DNA of 64,000 bases from Maritalea mobilis. Its GTDB lineage: Bacteria > Pseudomonadota > Alphaproteobacteria > Rhodobacterales > Rhodobacteraceae. The notes beneath the pieces were generated by a model. The model ran no database searches, was not told where the DNA came from, and saw only the letters and a program-made list of their open reading frames with translations. A program made the position numbers and the translations under genes. The stretch is from contig NZ_JAHVKE010000001.1 of assembly GCF_019800885.1 (NCBI RefSeq), positions 1,116,001 to 1,180,000 on the forward strand, read 5' to 3'. The first letter of the stretch is position 1, and each line of letters begins with the position of its first letter. Below, in pieces: positions 53,216-58,965 of the stretch.

Positions 53216-54220
53216 TTACCAGCCCCCCTCGACCTGCGGGACACCAAGTGATGCGGCATCGACGCCCCGGGCGGGCGCGTCGGTCCGCGTGGCGACCCGC
53301 AGCTTGGCAGAGCGCGCCCGCGGGTTGGCCTCGATCTCTTCGGGGTCGGGCGGGATCGCCTTTTTCGGGGTCAGGTCGAAGCCCGGATCGCGAAGCGCCT
53401 CGGCCGGTGCATGGCGCGAGCCACCGCCCCCGCGGCTGGAGCGTTCGGCGAGGAACCGTTTCACCACGCGATCCTCGATGGAATGAAACGACACGACGGC
53501 CAACTTGCCGCCGGGCTTTAGCACGCGCTCTGCCGCCTCCAACCCCCTGACAAGGGACATGAATTCGTCGTTCACCGCGATGCGGATCGCCTGAAAACTG
53601 CGGGTCGCCGGGTGGCTCTGACCCGGTTTCTTGCGCGGCAGGCAGCCCTCGATGAGCGTCGCGAGATGCAGGGTCGAGGTGATGCGCCCCTTGGCGCGCT
53701 CCGAGACAATCGCCTTCGCGATGCGCCGCGCGGCACGCTCTTCCCCGTAGTGAAACAGGATGTCGGCAATCAGCGCCTCGGGGGCGTCGTTCACGATATC
53801 CTCGGCCGAAGGCCCCTCGCGCCCCATGCGCATGTCGAGCGGGCCGTCGCGCAGAAAGGAAAAGCCGCGCTCGGCCATGTCCAGCTGCATGGAGGAAACG
53901 CCAAGATCCAGGGTCACACCGTCCAGGGCGGCAAAGCCCACGCTTGCGGCATGGGCGTCGAGGTCCGCGAAATTTCCCGCAACCAATTTGAGCCGGTCGC
54001 CATAGGCGCCGGCCCAATCCTCGGCCATCTCAAAGGCCAACGGGTCACGGTCCACGCCGATCACGACATCCGCCCCCGCCTCAAGCAGACCACGGGCGTA
54101 GCCACCAGCGCCGAAAGTGCCGTCCAGCCACACGCCAGAAACCGGAGACACAGCCCGTATCAACGGACGCAGCAGAACGGGAATATGCGGGGCCTTGTCC
54201 GGGTGCGACGCGTCCGTCAT
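53216..54220 (-). CDS. rsmH: 16S rRNA (cytosine1402-N4)-methyltransferase RsmH
   Basis: A 334-aa SAM-dependent methyltransferase (MraW) modifying C1402 in the decoding centre of 16S rRNA. Signatures are [38 protein letters not shown]-like SAM loop, [30 protein letters not shown] and [15 protein letters not shown]. It overlaps the mraZ stop by 4 nt. Confidence 0.96.
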
Positions 54221-54747
54221 TCCACCGGCTCGACCTTGCGCGCCTCAAGCTCGCGATAGGCGGCCGCGAGCGGATCGAAATAGGCATCATCCTGTCCCAT
54301 CTCGGCCAGCATCGCCTCGTAATCCTCGTCCGCCGCGCTGGCCTCGGACGGCTTGAGGATGTGAAACTGGTCGCCATGGCCCTGGAACAGCGCCTCTCCG
54401 TCGACGTCGATCTTCTCGCGGGCGGCCTGTGACAGCACGAGACGTCCGGTATCGTCCAGAACGGTCGCGTCACACTTGGTGTAATAGAGATAGCCCATCG
54501 CCTTTTTCAGCGGACTGCCGGGCGTAAGCTGCTGGATCATCTGGTCGATCTGGTCGAACGCATCGCCCGACAAGCATTCCAGGTAATTTTTCTTGGGGTC
54601 GCCATAGGCGATGTACAGGCGCGGTGCGCCGCCGGGCGCATAGTCCTTGTCGCAGTTCTGCAAGACGCGACGGAACTTAGCCGGGATCGAGACCCGGCCC
54701 TTTCCGTCCACCTTGTTGAGGCTTTCGCCCAGAAATCTGCGGTCCAC
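54217..54747 (-). CDS. mraZ: Transcriptional regulator MraZ
   Basis: A 176-aa protein with two SpoVT/AbrB-like domains that in other bacteria represses the dcw operon. The N terminus [22 protein letters not shown] and the repeat [19 protein letters not shown] are diagnostic. The C-terminal acidic tail is longer than in E. coli (152 aa). Translation appears to start at GTG (54747) with GAGG upstream. It is the first gene of the dcw cluster. No unambiguous triple TGGG MraZ box was found upstream. Confidence 0.94.
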
Positions 54748-54794
54748 CGCGTTTGCCTCTTTTTCGCCTCATTCGAGCCTTATTCCAGCCCCGA

Positions 54795-54839
54795 AACGGA
54801 AACGGCGGATTGAGCAAGCTGCCACTGCTCAATCCGCCG
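54795..54839 (-). terminator. Strong hairpin upstream of mraZ (attenuator/terminator)
   Basis: CGGCGGATTGAGCA / TGCTCAATCCGCCG, 14 perfect base pairs with a 9-nt loop (stem 54803-54816 with 54826-54839), is followed on the minus strand by TTTCCGTTTCGGGG. The interrupted T-run suggests partial termination, leaving some read-through into mraZ and the dcw genes. Confidence 0.75.
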
Positions 54840-55010
54840 CCCTCGTCCCATTGCTGGGTGTCCGACTACGCAGGCCACCTGGGGGGATGTCTGCTCGCTT
54901 GCGCGCCGGATCTCTTTGTCTTGGCGTTCGAGATTGCCTGTATGAACACCTGCCGTTTTTGTTGTCTTTTCAGGTCTTTGCGACCCGTTGTTCGATCTCG
55001 TCTGCCGATG
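54795..55010 (-). ncRNA. Candidate UpsM-like RNA in the mraZ leader
   Basis: The 564 bp between mraZ and apbC contain no credible gene. On the minus strand, about 55 nt before the mraZ GTG, a perfect 14-bp hairpin with TTTCCGTTTC tail ends a leader of roughly 200 nt. In R. sphaeroides an abundant ~200-nt sRNA (UpsM) is made by partial termination in the mraZ 5' leader. Position, size and terminator type agree here. The 5' end is not fixed: a weak TTGAGT at 55044-55039 is a possible -35, but no good -10 is seen, so the coordinates are approximate. Confidence 0.5.
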
Positions 55011-55114
55011 GATAATTTGTGCCATGGGAAACCTCCCCACTCAACACCTTTTTTTGGGTTTATCTGCCAAAGACTGGGAAACAGGGCCCTTGAGCACCCC
55101 TGTCGTTGCCCATT

Positions 55115-55149
55115 TGCAACGAAAGAGGCGGCCCAGATTGTGGGCCGCC
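55115..55149 (-). terminator. Hairpin downstream of apbC
   Basis: GGCGGCCCA-GATTG-TGGGCCGCC (55127-55149), a 9-bp stem, is followed on the minus strand by TCTTTCGTTGC. It lies about 160 nt after the apbC stop and probably ends that transcript before the mraZ leader begins. A small neighbouring hairpin CGTTGC-AAATG-GGCAACG overlaps the tail. Confidence 0.6.
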
Positions 55150-55311
55150 CGCATCAAAACACCATATGTAGTGAAAATCAGGCCTCGCCCGGGGCATTCC
55201 CATAACGTGGCAGGTTTTTCCAGATTTTGCGCCGCGAGGGCGGAATTGGCGGGTTTTCCCACCCCGAGCCTTGCGAATCACCCTCTCGTGATGCGCGGAT
55301 AAGGGTCGGTG

Positions 55312-56406
55312 TCAGGCCAGCCCACCCTCGATGAATCGCTTCGCGAGGTTCGCATAGGCCTCGGCCATCGGTCCCTCGCCTGCCGCGATCGGCGTGCCCG
55401 CATCGCCCGCGATCCGCGTCTCAAGGCTGATCGGAAGCGCACCGAGGAACGGATGGCCCAGCTTTTCGGCTTCGGACCGGACGCCGCCCTCGCCGAAGAT
55501 ATGCGCCTCGTGACCGCAATTGGGGCAGATGTAGCTCGCCATGTTCTCGATCAGGCCCAGAACGGGGGTCTTGAGCAGGTCGAACATGTTCAACGCCTTG
55601 CGCGCGTCGAGCAGCGCCACGTCCTGCGGCGTCGACACGACGATCGCCCCCGTCACCTCGGCTTTCTGGCAGAGGGTCATGGCCACGTCGCCCGTACCCG
55701 GCGGCAGGTCGACAAGGAGCGTGTCCAACTCGCCCCACTCCACCTGGGTCAGCATCTGCTGCAACGCCCCCATGAGCATCGGGCCGCGCCAGACCACCGC
55801 CTTTTCCTCGGGCAGCATGAAGCCGATCGACATCATGGTGACGCCATGGTTCTTGAGCGGGATGATCGTCTTGCCGTCCGGGCTGGCGGGGCGTTTGTTC
55901 ACACCCATCATGCGCGGCACGCTGGGGCCGTAGATATCGGCATCCAGCAGGCCCACGCGCCGCCCCTGCCGCGCCAGCGCCACGGCGAGGTTCGTGGCGA
56001 CGGTTGATTTGCCCACGCCCCCCTTGCCGGACCCGATCCCGATGATCGTCTTGACACCCGAGGGTTTCATCGAGCCTTCCTGCGGCTTCATGTGCCCGCC
56101 CATTTTCAACGTCGGCGGCTCGCCGCCTTGCGGCGCGGCGGGCGGGGCCTTTTGAGTCGGACCATGGGCGGTCAAGGCGACGCTCACGCCGTCGACACCG
56201 GGCAGGCGCGAGACGATCTGTTCCGCGGCGCGGCGCACTCCATCCATGCCACGCGCGGCCTCGGGCGTTTCGGCCTCGATGATGAAACTGACCTTCTCGC
56301 CCTCGATCCGCAGGGCACGCACCATGTCGCGACTGACCAGGTCGCCGCCATCGGGCAGTGTCAGCGCGCGCAACGCGTCGAGGATGCTGTCGCGGGTCTG
56401 GGTCAT
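55312..56406 (-). CDS. apbC: Iron-sulfur carrier protein ApbC/Mrp
   Basis: A 364-aa P-loop NTPase of the Mrp/NBP35 family that carries [4Fe-4S] clusters. It has an N-terminal MIP18/DUF59 domain (1-75) and a deviant Walker A IGSGKGGVGKSTVATNLA near residue 125. DADIYGPSVP and the cluster-binding CXXC (YICPNCGHEAHIFG) follow. A 25-residue Pro/Gly-rich linker containing APPAAPQGG joins the domains. AAAGGA precedes the ATG. It reads toward mraZ but is separated from it by a hairpin. Confidence 0.95.
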   Translation of the reverse strand: MTQTRDSILDALRALTLPDGGDLVSRDMVRALRIEGEKVSFIIEAETPEAARGMDGVRRAAEQIVSRLPGVDGVSVALTAHGPTQKAPPAAPQGGEPPTLKMGGHMKPQEGSMKPSGVKTIIGIGSGKGGVGKSTVATNLAVALARQGRRVGLLDADIYGPSVPRMMGVNKRPASPDGKTIIPLKNHGVTMMSIGFMLPEEKAVVWRGPMLMGALQQMLTQVEWGELDTLLVDLPPGTGDVAMTLCQKAEVTGAIVVSTPQDVALLDARKALNMFDLLKTPVLGLIENMASYICPNCGHEAHIFGEGGVRSEAEKLGHPFLGALPISLETRIAGDAGTPIAAGEGPMAEAYANLAKRFIEGGLA

Positions 56407-57690: not shown

Positions 57691-57707
57691 TATGCATTTT
57701 CTGCATA
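57691..57707. promoter_or_regulatory. Inverted repeat TATGCA-TTTTC-TGCATA
   Basis: A perfect 6-bp inverted repeat with a 5-nt spacer lies between the divergent MFS and DUF1127 genes. It may be an operator for either gene. No known binding site is recognised. Confidence 0.3.
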
Positions 57708-57728
57708 GCGGCGTTGAAGCCTTGTTTA

Positions 57729-57756
57729 TTGTGCACCCGCAGCATTCGCCTATCTT
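57729..57756 (+). promoter_or_regulatory. Candidate promoter of the DUF1127-CcsR unit
   Basis: TTGTGC (57729-57734), 16 nt, TATCTT (57751-57756) gives a plausible -35/-10 pair about 90 nt before the DUF1127 ATG. The homologous unit in R. sphaeroides uses heat-shock sigma factors RpoHI/RpoHII. A CTTG also occurs at 57721 but at an unsuitable spacing. Found by eye. Confidence 0.35.
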
Positions 57757-57851
57757 CTTCCTCAACAGGGGCGCGGCCCCAAGCACTACACTGAGCAGGA
57801 CGCGTGGCAGTTCCACAGCCGCCTCCGGCAGAAAACGCAAGGACAAGAAAC

Positions 57852-58070
57852 ATGGCATTTGTTTCGAGCAATCGCAGCACCGTCGCCCTGGGCAGCCGCC
57901 TGGGCGAAATCTGGCAGCAAGCCGCCGAAGCCTACGCGACCTGGCGTCTGTATCGCCGCACGTTGGCCGAGCTTCAAGGCCTGTCGGGGCGCGAAATGGC
58001 CGATCTCGGCCTGAACCGCTCGATGCTGCGTCGTGCAGCACTCGAAGCCGCTTACGGCAAGGACGTCTGA
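57852..58070 (+). CDS. ccaF1: DUF1127 protein, CcaF1-like RNA-binding protein
   Basis: A 72-aa basic protein. The C-terminal DUF1127 domain (about 30-65) has YATWRLYRRTLAELQGLSGREMADLGLNRSML, rich in Arg as in the family. In R. sphaeroides the equivalent 71-aa protein (RSP_6037, CcaF1) lies directly before four CcsR sRNAs and binds RNA during their maturation. Here the same layout follows: the array starts 20 nt after the stop. AAGGA lies 10 nt before the ATG. The symbol is assigned by synteny and size. Confidence 0.9.
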   Translation: MAFVSSNRSTVALGSRLGEIWQQAAEAYATWRLYRRTLAELQGLSGREMADLGLNRSMLRRAALEAAYGKDV

Positions 58071-58090
58071 TCGTCCGAACACGGAATTCG

Positions 58091-58159
58091 CTGGCCTCAC
58101 CTCCTCCCTTCAGAGGCCAGCGTCGCGGGGCGCATCCCCCTCCTCCCTTGGATGCGTCC
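58091..58159 (+). ncRNA. CcsR-type sRNA 1 (two CCTCCTCCC hairpins)
   Basis: Hairpin 1 (58091-58120) has an 8-bp stem CTGGCCTC/GAGGCCAG with loop motif CCTCCTCCC at 58100-58108. Hairpin 2 (58128-58159) has a 10-bp stem containing one G-U pair, with the motif at 58139-58147. The loops equal the anti-Shine-Dalgarno sequence of 16S rRNA and would pair with SD-like mRNA sites. The two-hairpin form fits the 'cuckoo' RNA family. The array is co-transcribed with the DUF1127 gene and presumably processed. Confidence 0.85.
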
Positions 58160-58168
58160 GCACAATCC

Positions 58169-58189
58169 GCCCGGATCCTCCCTCCGGGC
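58169..58189 (+). repeat. Spacer hairpin A1 with short loop TCCTCCC
   Basis: A 7-bp stem GCCCGGA/TCCGGGC carries the 7-nt loop TCCTCCC (58176-58182), a shortened version of the CcsR motif. It lies between sRNA 1 and sRNA 2 and resembles A3 at 58385-58403. It may separate the sRNAs for processing or expose a weaker anti-SD. Confidence 0.7.
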
Positions 58190-58196
58190 AAAAGAT

Positions 58197-58268
58197 CGGC
58201 CCCCTCCTCCCATCTGGGGTCGTGACAGCGGCGGTGATCCTCTCCTCCTCCCTTGAGGATCACCGCCG
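58197..58268 (+). ncRNA. CcsR-type sRNA 2
   Basis: Hairpin B1 (58197-58222) has a 7-bp stem CGGCCCC/GGGGTCG with one G-U pair and the motif at 58203-58211. Hairpin C1 (58229-58268) has a perfect 14-bp stem with loop TCCTCCTCCCTT and motif at 58244-58252. Bases 58230-58268 are identical to 58339-58377. Confidence 0.85.
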
Positions 58269-58277
58269 AAAAATTCC

Positions 58278-58293
58278 GGGGCCTTGCAGCCCC
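58278..58293 (+). repeat. Spacer hairpin A2 lacking the CCTCC motif
   Basis: GGGGC-CTTGCA-GCCCC occupies the same relative place as A1 and A3 but its loop has no anti-SD sequence. It appears to be the degenerate member of the three spacer hairpins. Confidence 0.6.
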
Positions 58294-58300
58294 AAACGGC

Positions 58301-58377
58301 ATCGGCGCCCCTCCTCCTCCCTTGGGGGCCGGTACTCAGGCGGTGATCCTCTCCTCCTCCCTTGAGGATCACCGCCG
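58301..58377 (+). ncRNA. CcsR-type sRNA 3
   Basis: Hairpin B2 (58301-58333) has stem ATCGGC-(g)-CCCC/GGGGGCCGGT with one bulge and the motif at 58313-58321. Hairpin C2 (58339-58377) has a 13-bp stem with loop TCCTCCTCCCTT and motif at 58353-58361. C2 is a 39-nt exact copy of C1. Confidence 0.85.
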
Positions 58378-58384
58378 CCCAATA

Positions 58385-58403
58385 CCGGGATCCTCCCTCC
58401 CGG
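58385..58403 (+). repeat. Spacer hairpin A3 with short loop TCCTCCC
   Basis: CCGGGA-TCCTCCC-TCCCGG, a 6-bp stem with the short motif loop at 58391-58397, resembles A1. It precedes sRNA 4. Confidence 0.7.
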
Positions 58404-58408
58404 ACGTC

Positions 58409-58495
58409 ATCGGTGCCCCTCCTCCTCCCATTCGGGGGCCGATAACAAAAGGCGGCGGCTGACCCTCCTCCTCCCTCGGGTCATCCGCCGCCTTT
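58409..58495 (+). ncRNA. CcsR-type sRNA 4 (terminal)
   Basis: Hairpin B3 (58409-58443) has stem ATCGGT-(g)-CCCC/GGGGGCCGAT and motif at 58421-58429. Hairpin C3 (58448-58495) has an 18-bp stem with one mismatch and the motif at 58467-58475. C3 is longer than C1/C2 and doubles as the terminator of the unit. Confidence 0.85.
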
Positions 58496-58505
58496 CTCTT
58501 TTTCG
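58447..58505. terminator. Bidirectional terminator of the CcsR array and lrp
   Basis: The C3 stem is preceded by AAAA and followed by CTCTTTTTC, giving T-tracts on both strands. It terminates the DUF1127-CcsR transcript on the plus strand and, 18 nt past the lrp stop, the lrp transcript on the minus strand. Confidence 0.88.
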
Positions 58506-58512
58506 GACCTTT

Positions 58513-58965
58513 TCAGGCGCGGTCGTCCTTGGGGGAGCCCATCACGACATAGGTTTGCAGGGTCGCCACTTGCGGCAAGCTGCCCAGCACATCGGTATGG
58601 AATCGCTTGTAGGCGCCAAGATCCGACACCTCGACCCGCAGCAGATATTCCACGCTGCCAGTGATGTTGTGGCACTCGCGCACCTCGTCGGCCTGCGCCA
58701 TAGCGCGTTCAAACGCCTCTTGCGCGGCTTTCGTATGCTCGTTCAACCCAACCGAGATATACGCCGCGAAGCCGACCCCCATGGCGGCGGGATCGAGCAC
58801 CGCGCGATACCCGCGGATCACGCCCGCCTTTTCCAGCGCCTGCACCCGCCGCAACGTGGCCGAGGGTGACAAGGCCACACGTTCGGCCAGGTCGAGATTG
58901 GAGATTCGGCCGTCGCGCGACAGCTCGCGCAATATCTGGCGGTCTTTTTGATCAACACTGCCCAT
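58513..58965 (-). CDS. Lrp/AsnC-family transcriptional regulator
   Basis: A 150-aa regulator. The N-terminal winged helix (about 5-62) has DQKDRQILRELSRDGRISNLDLAERVALSPSATLRRVQALEKAGVI. The C-terminal RAM ligand domain (about 68-145) has VRECHNITGSVEYLLRVEVSDLGAYKRF. It is divergent from a LysE exporter gene with a nested palindrome in the 73-bp gap, the standard layout for an Lrp-type activator of an amino acid exporter. Effector unknown. The ATG giving MGSVDQKDRQ is family-typical. Confidence 0.93.
   Translation of the reverse strand: MGSVDQKDRQILRELSRDGRISNLDLAERVALSPSATLRRVQALEKAGVIRGYRAVLDPAAMGVGFAAYISVGLNEHTKAAQEAFERAMAQADEVRECHNITGSVEYLLRVEVSDLGAYKRFHTDVLGSLPQVATLQTYVVMGSPKDDRA

Follow-up and report, generated by a model that had tools for sequence, protein, structure and literature searches.

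A DUF1127 gene with a four-unit hairpin array in Maritalea mobilis and a candidate LsrB/VtlR-type box in its promoter

Which regulators act on a DUF1127 gene and the series of hairpins behind it in Maritalea mobilis, and what would these hairpins do? Both lie in the window, the whole 64,000-nt stretch of DNA analysed here (contig NZ_JAHVKE010000001.1, positions 1,116,001 to 1,180,000), and the hairpins expose the motif CCTCCTCCC. A preliminary description, made from the sequence, had taken them for an array of CcsR-type, or cuckoo, small RNAs (sRNAs). Many other ccaF1-CcsR loci exist, and the DUF1127/cuckoo (CIN1) kind to which this one belongs is already known. The most informative part of the locus is a conserved operator upstream of the DUF1127 gene, which the preliminary description did not include. 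We consider it probable that this is a ccaF1-CcsR locus with a dual input, from RpoH and from an LsrB/VtlR-type regulator, and that it yields processed anti-Shine-Dalgarno sRNAs. Published work is cited below from excerpts of the papers.

The hairpin array and its relatives

The array spans 58089-58495 on the + strand and contains eight CCTCCTCCC hairpins. It starts 18 nt past the end of the DUF1127 gene; the adjacency had been recognized before, with a gap of 20 nt. CCTCCTCCC has eight copies in the 64 kb, all on the + strand (none on the - strand) and every one within the array, starting at 58100, 58139, 58203, 58244, 58313, 58353, 58421 and 58467; the Poisson value for eight copies in 376 bp is ~1e-27. 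The complete genome (designated G000, 3.67 Mb) has 37 copies, and the reversed pattern occurs 31 times there; outside the array, the 29 remaining copies are thus at chance level. Folding of the 416-nt RNA gave -217.7 kcal/mol, compared with -151.1 for shuffled sequences (standard deviation 5.6, n=100; z = -12). When the units were folded one by one, all eight hairpins formed and placed the motif in the loop; in hairpin 3 its first C was paired. These folds, together with the exact counts, bear out the earlier claim of eight stem-loops arranged as four two-hairpin units. One small hairpin, absent from the preliminary description, lies between each two adjacent pairs: two of these have a TCCTCCC loop and one has no motif. 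The repeat length is ~108 nt.

57852..58070, + strand: DUF1127 gene, CcaF1-like, 72 aa (PF06568, 46.1 bits, E 3.9e-12)
58089..58122, + strand: hairpin 1, CCTCCTCCC loop (folding)
58125..58161, + strand: hairpin 2, CCTCCTCCC loop (folding)
58169..58189, + strand: spacer hairpin a, shorter loop TCCTCCC (folding)
58197..58222, + strand: hairpin 3, CTCCTCCC in loop, weaker, with a competing long-range fold (folding)
58229..58268, + strand: hairpin 4, CCTCCTCCC loop, 38 nt identical to hairpin 6 (repeats, folding)
58278..58293, + strand: spacer hairpin b, no motif, after AAAAATT, a possible RNase E site (folding)
58301..58333, + strand: hairpin 5, CCTCCTCCC loop (folding)
58339..58376, + strand: hairpin 6, CCTCCTCCC loop (repeats, folding)
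58385..58403, + strand: spacer hairpin c, loop TCCTCCC (folding)
58409..58443, + strand: hairpin 7, CCTCCTCCC loop, weaker, with a competing long-range fold (folding)
58448..58495, + strand: hairpin 8, CCTCCTCCC loop, then a T-rich tail; probable terminator (repeats, folding)

In the full-length minimum-energy fold, long-range pairing replaces the hairpins at 58203 and 58421 (hairpins 3 and 7), and the centroid fold pairs the hairpin at 58244 with the one at 58353. Within 58195-58443, hairpin 3 has partial complementarity to hairpin 7, and an identical sequence recurs in hairpins 4 and 6; hence the full transcript has alternative long-range folds. The stretch common to hairpins 4 and 6 suggests a recent duplication or conversion. 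Past the last hairpin there is a T-rich tail on the + strand and a run of 4 T on the - strand, in agreement with the strong bidirectional terminator proposed previously; the terminator scan did not list this hairpin, whose 12-nt loop exceeds the limit of that scan. The terminator is perhaps common to the array and a convergent AsnC-type gene (58513-58965, - strand).

Pairing within the hairpins is conserved despite stem changes, as the cuckoo assignment had called for: of 835 distinct hairpins, drawn from 121 loci, 711 retained at least 6 bp of stem, compared with 22% when right arms were re-dealt among hairpins, and the motif was wholly unpaired in 291 of 300 sampled hairpins. For the first hairpin of each locus, chosen by position, the stem was kept in 53 of 61 cases (re-dealt mean 12.5, maximum 21 in 200 re-dealings). 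The gap from the DUF1127 end to the first motif was 18-98 nt in 53 of 60 array loci, a set that includes the window itself (L019) and counts genomes G014 and G017 twice each. Among the 53 named loci for which 1.5 kb of DNA was at hand, the number of full motifs ranged from 0 to 16, with a median of 6. At E<=0.01, the CcsR1 covariance model (RF02791) matched in 250 of 295 genomes of the family, exceeding its gathering score in 10 of the 295, and the ar14 model (RF02344) matched in 35 of 61 genomes, M. mobilis included. Three tightly spaced CCTCCTCCC copies were present in 86 of the 295, by a pattern that the window's own array fails (one 55-nt gap) and whose control also matched in seven genomes.

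Array size and organization varied among relatives. The largest array (L067, genome G193) had 26 CCTCCTCCC copies in ~1.2 kb with a higher-order repeat of ~140 nt. In locus L022 (genome G011), a 2.2-kb stretch held four DUF1127-like genes, which share their strand with 10 CCTCCTCCC copies, as if a gene-plus-array unit had been duplicated. In the R. sphaeroides-like genome G079, positions 1519-2240 of locus L140 contained 14 CCTCCTCCC copies forming seven pairs, the later ones in near-identical ~114-nt repeats, whereas the R. sphaeroides papers, in the excerpts, count four CcsR RNAs.

All four same-genus genomes (G001-G004) show the order RsmH, Mrp, MFS, DUF1127, array, AsnC, LysE and UvrD, as do, with only the MFS match absent, G015 and G007 from other genera. 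In G079 and G132, labelled 'R. sphaeroides-like' for their CcsR1 scores (106 and 104 bits), the window's order of RsmH, Mrp, DUF1127, array and UvrD recurs; no match to the window's MFS, AsnC or LysE was found in the 16-kb stretches of these two genomes. The DUF1127 protein is 85% identical to that of G001 and 43% to that of G079. The shared gene order makes this, by position, the ccaF1-CcsR locus, even with RNA scores below the cut-offs. The orthology with the R. sphaeroides locus proposed earlier is thus supported by synteny in G079 and G132 and by covariance matches, the latter sub-gathering.

Promoter elements and the LsrB-like protein

Three elements were distinguished upstream of the DUF1127 gene.

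57702..57716, + strand: LsrB/VtlR-like candidate operator box TGCATAGCGGCGTTG, family consensus TGCATRGCNGCRTTG (sequence comparison)
57729..57745, + strand: second element TTGTGCACCCGCAGCAT (TGCA-N6-GCAT), overlapping the -35 region (conservation)
57749..57756, + strand: putative -10 CCTATCTT, RpoH-like (sequence; start site placed near 57763)

The first box would lie at -61 to -47, upstream of the core promoter. Same-genus upstream regions share TGCATRGCRGCRTTG, followed 12 nt on by TTGTGCANNYGCAGCA and then by a -10 such as CCTATCTT. The distance between TTG and CCTATCTT corresponds to an RpoH-like -35/-10 spacing, and the genome gave three rpoH-like gene matches, one of them over the cut-off; these features are compatible with RpoH control of the window locus. 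A sigma-70 promoter scan found nothing.

A two-box promoter pattern was then used, as the sole criterion, to scan named genomes. It matched at least 116 stretches; 80 loci were retrieved, with titles that give Rhodobacterales genera or families, or else only Alphaproteobacteria, Pseudomonadota or proteobacterium. These 80 loci contained 81 sites, 79 of which precede a DUF1127 gene and/or an array: 71 had both, five a DUF1127 gene only and three an array only, and two had neither. An array was counted from two TCCTCCC upwards, and four of the 71 rows with both features lack the full 9-mer; the fetched DNA ends within 471 nt at all five DUF1127-only sites, and one of the two sites with neither has 60 nt of DNA. 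In the profile of 79 promoters, which omits L195 (no DUF1127 gene or array; also left out of the VtlR identity count) and L174 (60 nt), TGCA-N6-GCAW was fitted by 73 sequences. The GCAGCA after TTGTGCA, which is outside the search pattern, was 96-100% conserved, and a -10-like pattern was found in 36, this part being less conserved. One locus, L184 from a metagenome-assembled genome of Roseobacter sp., carried the double-box promoter twice, at a spacing of 223 nt, ahead of a single DUF1127 gene. A looser double box was present in 157 of the 295 family genomes (control 0 in every row), namely in 154 of the 250 with a CcsR1 match and three of the 45 without (hand count).

The boxes resemble sites described for VtlR and LsrB in other alphaproteobacteria. 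The VtlR box is GCAT-N3-TG-N3-T (PMC7486931), which S. meliloti abcR1 also has, from -61 to -49 (PMC8844928); the Brucella VtlR site is CAATGCAGCCATGCA (PMC12595884), and TGCA-N6-GCAT is found upstream of NfeR1, where LsrB binds (PMC10746234). VtlR directly activates atu1667 (PMC7486931) and regulates three DUF1127 genes (PMC12595884), and LsrB activates NfeR1, an ar14 RNA (PMC10746234). On LsrB control of the S. meliloti abcR RNAs the papers disagree, PMC7486931 stating that there is none.

We compared the reverse complement of the CAATGCAGCCATGCA motif with the 270 nt upstream of the DUF1127 gene and recorded the best 15-mer identity. Since the 80 pattern-selected promoters reach at least 12/15 (12-14) by construction, the comparison was run on 51 array loci found without the promoter pattern. 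Identity was at least 12/15 in 49 of these and at least 13/15 in 40; the set includes the window itself, one of the 49 matches (L029) looks spurious, and the L067 region is 197 nt. The reversed motif exceeded 10 in none of the 51, and scrambled motifs reached at least 12 in 12 of 1020 comparisons, with 13 in one.

The genome encodes 27 LysR proteins. One of them (L278, a 305-residue frame) matched PDB 9HH1, which is A. tumefaciens LsrB (PMC11975290), with 258.7 bits, the next structure scoring 115.7. It was the best of the 27 against 9HH1, with 41% identity overall and 75% over the first 65 aa (the DNA-binding domain); the runner-up had 28-29% overall, and none of those listed exceeded 48% in the DNA-binding domain. 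This ranking held with full frames, the DNA-binding domain of L291 included. L278 had a single match in each of 288 of the 295 family genomes (E<=1e-70). A weak or absent match (E>1e-137 or none) was seen in 25 of the 45 genomes without CcsR1 versus eight of the 250 with it, a hand count with a threshold set after viewing the data and confounded by relatedness. From the boxes and this protein we infer LsrB-type control of the operon. VtlR is reportedly conserved among alphaproteobacteria, going by the title of a 2015 paper by Sheehan.

A third DUF1127 gene of this genome and a LysR gene are divergently oriented (G000:C1 ~1447489-1448612; L139, L290). The LysR gene has LrhA as its best NCBIfam match, with a score under the cut-off; no CCTCCTCCC was found near this DUF1127 gene.

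Proposed mechanism and alternative explanations

In R. sphaeroides, CcsR1-4 are released from the ccaF1 3' untranslated region by RNase E, with CcaF1 involved (PMC8625941, PMC10253847, PMC7866481). By analogy, a single transcript would start from the promoter at ~57729-57756, run through the gene for the DUF1127 RNA-binding protein and the four-unit array, and stop at the last hairpin. RNase E would cut this precursor between the units, probably in the spacers richer in A/U that adjoin the small spacer hairpins, to give about four two-hairpin sRNAs of ~75-90 nt. Transcription may depend on a promoter of RpoH type, like the RpoHI/RpoHII-dependent one reported in R. sphaeroides, and also on a LysR activator of LsrB/VtlR type acting on TGCATRGCNGCRTTG (~-61 to -47) and on TGCA-N6-GCAT at the -35 region. 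Judging from published work on NfeR1 and CcsR, the CCUCCUCCC loops most likely act by pairing with GGGAGGAGG-like Shine-Dalgarno sequences, which would lower translation of chosen mRNAs under stress. Because CCUCC occurs both in the array loops and at the tail of the 16S rRNA, these loops are able to imitate the anti-Shine-Dalgarno sequence of the ribosome, with CCC adding specificity.

Outside the array, the genome has 29 GGGAGGAGG sites, seven of them with a start codon at 3-13 nt and an open frame of at least 40 codons. Three candidate targets, counted without a control set, may serve as leads: a GntR-UTRA regulator, SoxA (TIGR04484, 227 bits, cut-off 110), whose site lies 9 nt ahead of the ATG, and a SoxH-related metallohydrolase (below its cut-offs).

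A few kb from the array, MraZ and Mrp (both on the - strand) flank a ~560-nt gap (window 54217-55312). Two RNase E-processed sRNA loci may adjoin here, because in R. sphaeroides the mraZ leader gives rise to the RNase E-derived sRNA UpsM (PMC7866481).

A number of observations weigh against a CcsR-type locus under LsrB-type control. The covariance check suggested by the preliminary description gave matches to both models, with window scores under the Rfam gathering cut-offs: 31.5, 27.4, 24.7 and 24.3 bits versus 65.3 for CcsR1, and 37.7 and 37.4 bits versus 58.8 for ar14. The strict double box is missing from 96 of the 250 genomes with a CcsR1 match. When the single box was searched for in 289 genomes across the class, 43 had a match and 30 loci were fetched, 29 of them from other families; none of the 29 sites outside the family was followed within 1.5 kb by a DUF1127 gene or CCTCCTCCC. 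The window box has GG where the VtlR box has TG and so departs from the full published box, and its identity to the VtlR motif (12/15) was equalled by 13 of 2000 random 150-bp window pieces; the case therefore rests on the family consensus and on position. The full GCAT-N3-TG-N3-T box occurs in only 3 of the 80 pattern-selected promoters, most of which have A or G in place of T. LsrB has been stated to be unique to Rhizobiales (PMC11975290), against which the LsrB-like protein with its 75% identical domain speaks, its function being assigned by similarity. No LysR gene follows trxB in this genome, unlike rhizobial lsrB, and no convincing box was found upstream of the LsrB-like gene (nine loci, six of which gave an upstream region) or of trxB. 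Finally, only three of the 29 GGGAGGAGG sites were judged plausible before a start codon.

It is unlikely that the array functions as proposed while its boxes are read by another LysR-type regulator, OxyR-like or uncharacterised. The genome has 27 LysR genes to choose from; of ten scanned against NCBIfam, three rank OxyR first, below the cut-off, and both the published restriction of LsrB to Rhizobiales and the rarity of the full VtlR box fit such a regulator; against it stand the LsrB-like protein, by far the nearest to LsrB in the DNA-binding domain, the 13-14/15 identity to the VtlR site in the 40 independently found loci, and the known VtlR targets among DUF1127 genes. A slightly smaller chance attaches to the array being chiefly a decoy, in which many loops titrate strong-Shine-Dalgarno mRNAs, an RNase or the DUF1127 protein and the number of hairpins matters, not chosen targets. 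A constant loop motif on variable stems, up to 26 motifs in a single locus and the few perfect sites at start codons would be expected of a decoy, but NfeR1 silences its targets via the identical motif (PMC10746234), flhR mRNA is a target of R. sphaeroides CcsR (PMC8307010), and nine of the 53 named loci have only 0-2 full motifs.

We regard it as more doubtful still that the upstream elements are an extended RpoH promoter only, with no LysR protein involved. The R. sphaeroides report (PMC10253847) counts in its favour, and the second element has a TTG that agrees with the -35 requirement in PMC3441632; however, the spacer GCAGCA is more conserved than the -10, and the consensus has no exact match in the 3.67-Mb genome other than the window box, which is therefore no general sigma-factor element. 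It is very improbable that the repeats are selfish or structural DNA that yields no RNA: near-identical repeats within arrays do suggest duplication or conversion, but the fixed strand, the place after DUF1127, and the conserved pairing and promoter argue against it. We thus retain the dual-input ccaF1-CcsR locus as the preferred explanation.

Comparison with known systems

The array itself is of a known sort, and the promoter link may be a new part. A connection between the array promoter and LsrB/VtlR was not seen in the literature searched, a search that was incomplete, and it may be in print. The promoter evidence connects the Rhodobacter CcsR RNAs under RpoH with rhizobial work on DUF1127 genes, AbcR and NfeR1 as LsrB/VtlR targets, and the published confinement of LsrB to Rhizobiales is put in question. 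We lean, by a little, towards a broader proposal, that the LsrB/VtlR-type regulator is an ancient, near-universal single-copy factor of Rhodobacteraceae whose principal target is the DUF1127-cuckoo operon, reached via a two-site operator fused to an RpoH-type promoter. If this is true, the rhizobial LsrB/VtlR outputs (DUF1127 proteins and anti-Shine-Dalgarno sRNAs) are one operon here, which would thus be a redox- or metabolism-gated translation switch and not just a heat-shock output.

The closest known system is CcsR1-4/ccaF1 of R. sphaeroides (RF02791), in which a DUF1127 gene is likewise followed by two-hairpin units with CCTCCTCCC loops. The window has the DUF1127 gene directly upstream on the same strand, four two-hairpin units and the R. 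sphaeroides-type position; it differs in its sub-threshold covariance score and its TCCTCCC spacer hairpins, and also in the predicted box, since no LsrB-type control was seen in the excerpts on CcsR. The cuckoo RNAs and CIN1 loci of alphaproteobacteria (Reinkensmeier and Giegerich 2015, via PMC10253847) similarly combine a DUF1127 gene with CcsR-like sRNAs. NfeR1/ar14 of rhizobia (RF02344) has identical loops on variable stems, works through these redundant loops, and in S. meliloti has an LsrB site upstream (PMC10746234); unlike the window, it is a 123-nt three-hairpin transcript with its own promoter, and a DUF1127 operon context was not seen in the excerpts of that paper. The VtlR/LsrB targets of Brucella, Agrobacterium and Sinorhizobium (DUF1127 genes, AbcR sRNAs, NfeR1) share with the window a very similar box at a similar promoter position, and their outputs likewise include a DUF1127 gene and an anti-Shine-Dalgarno RNA, which in the window stand together in a single operon.
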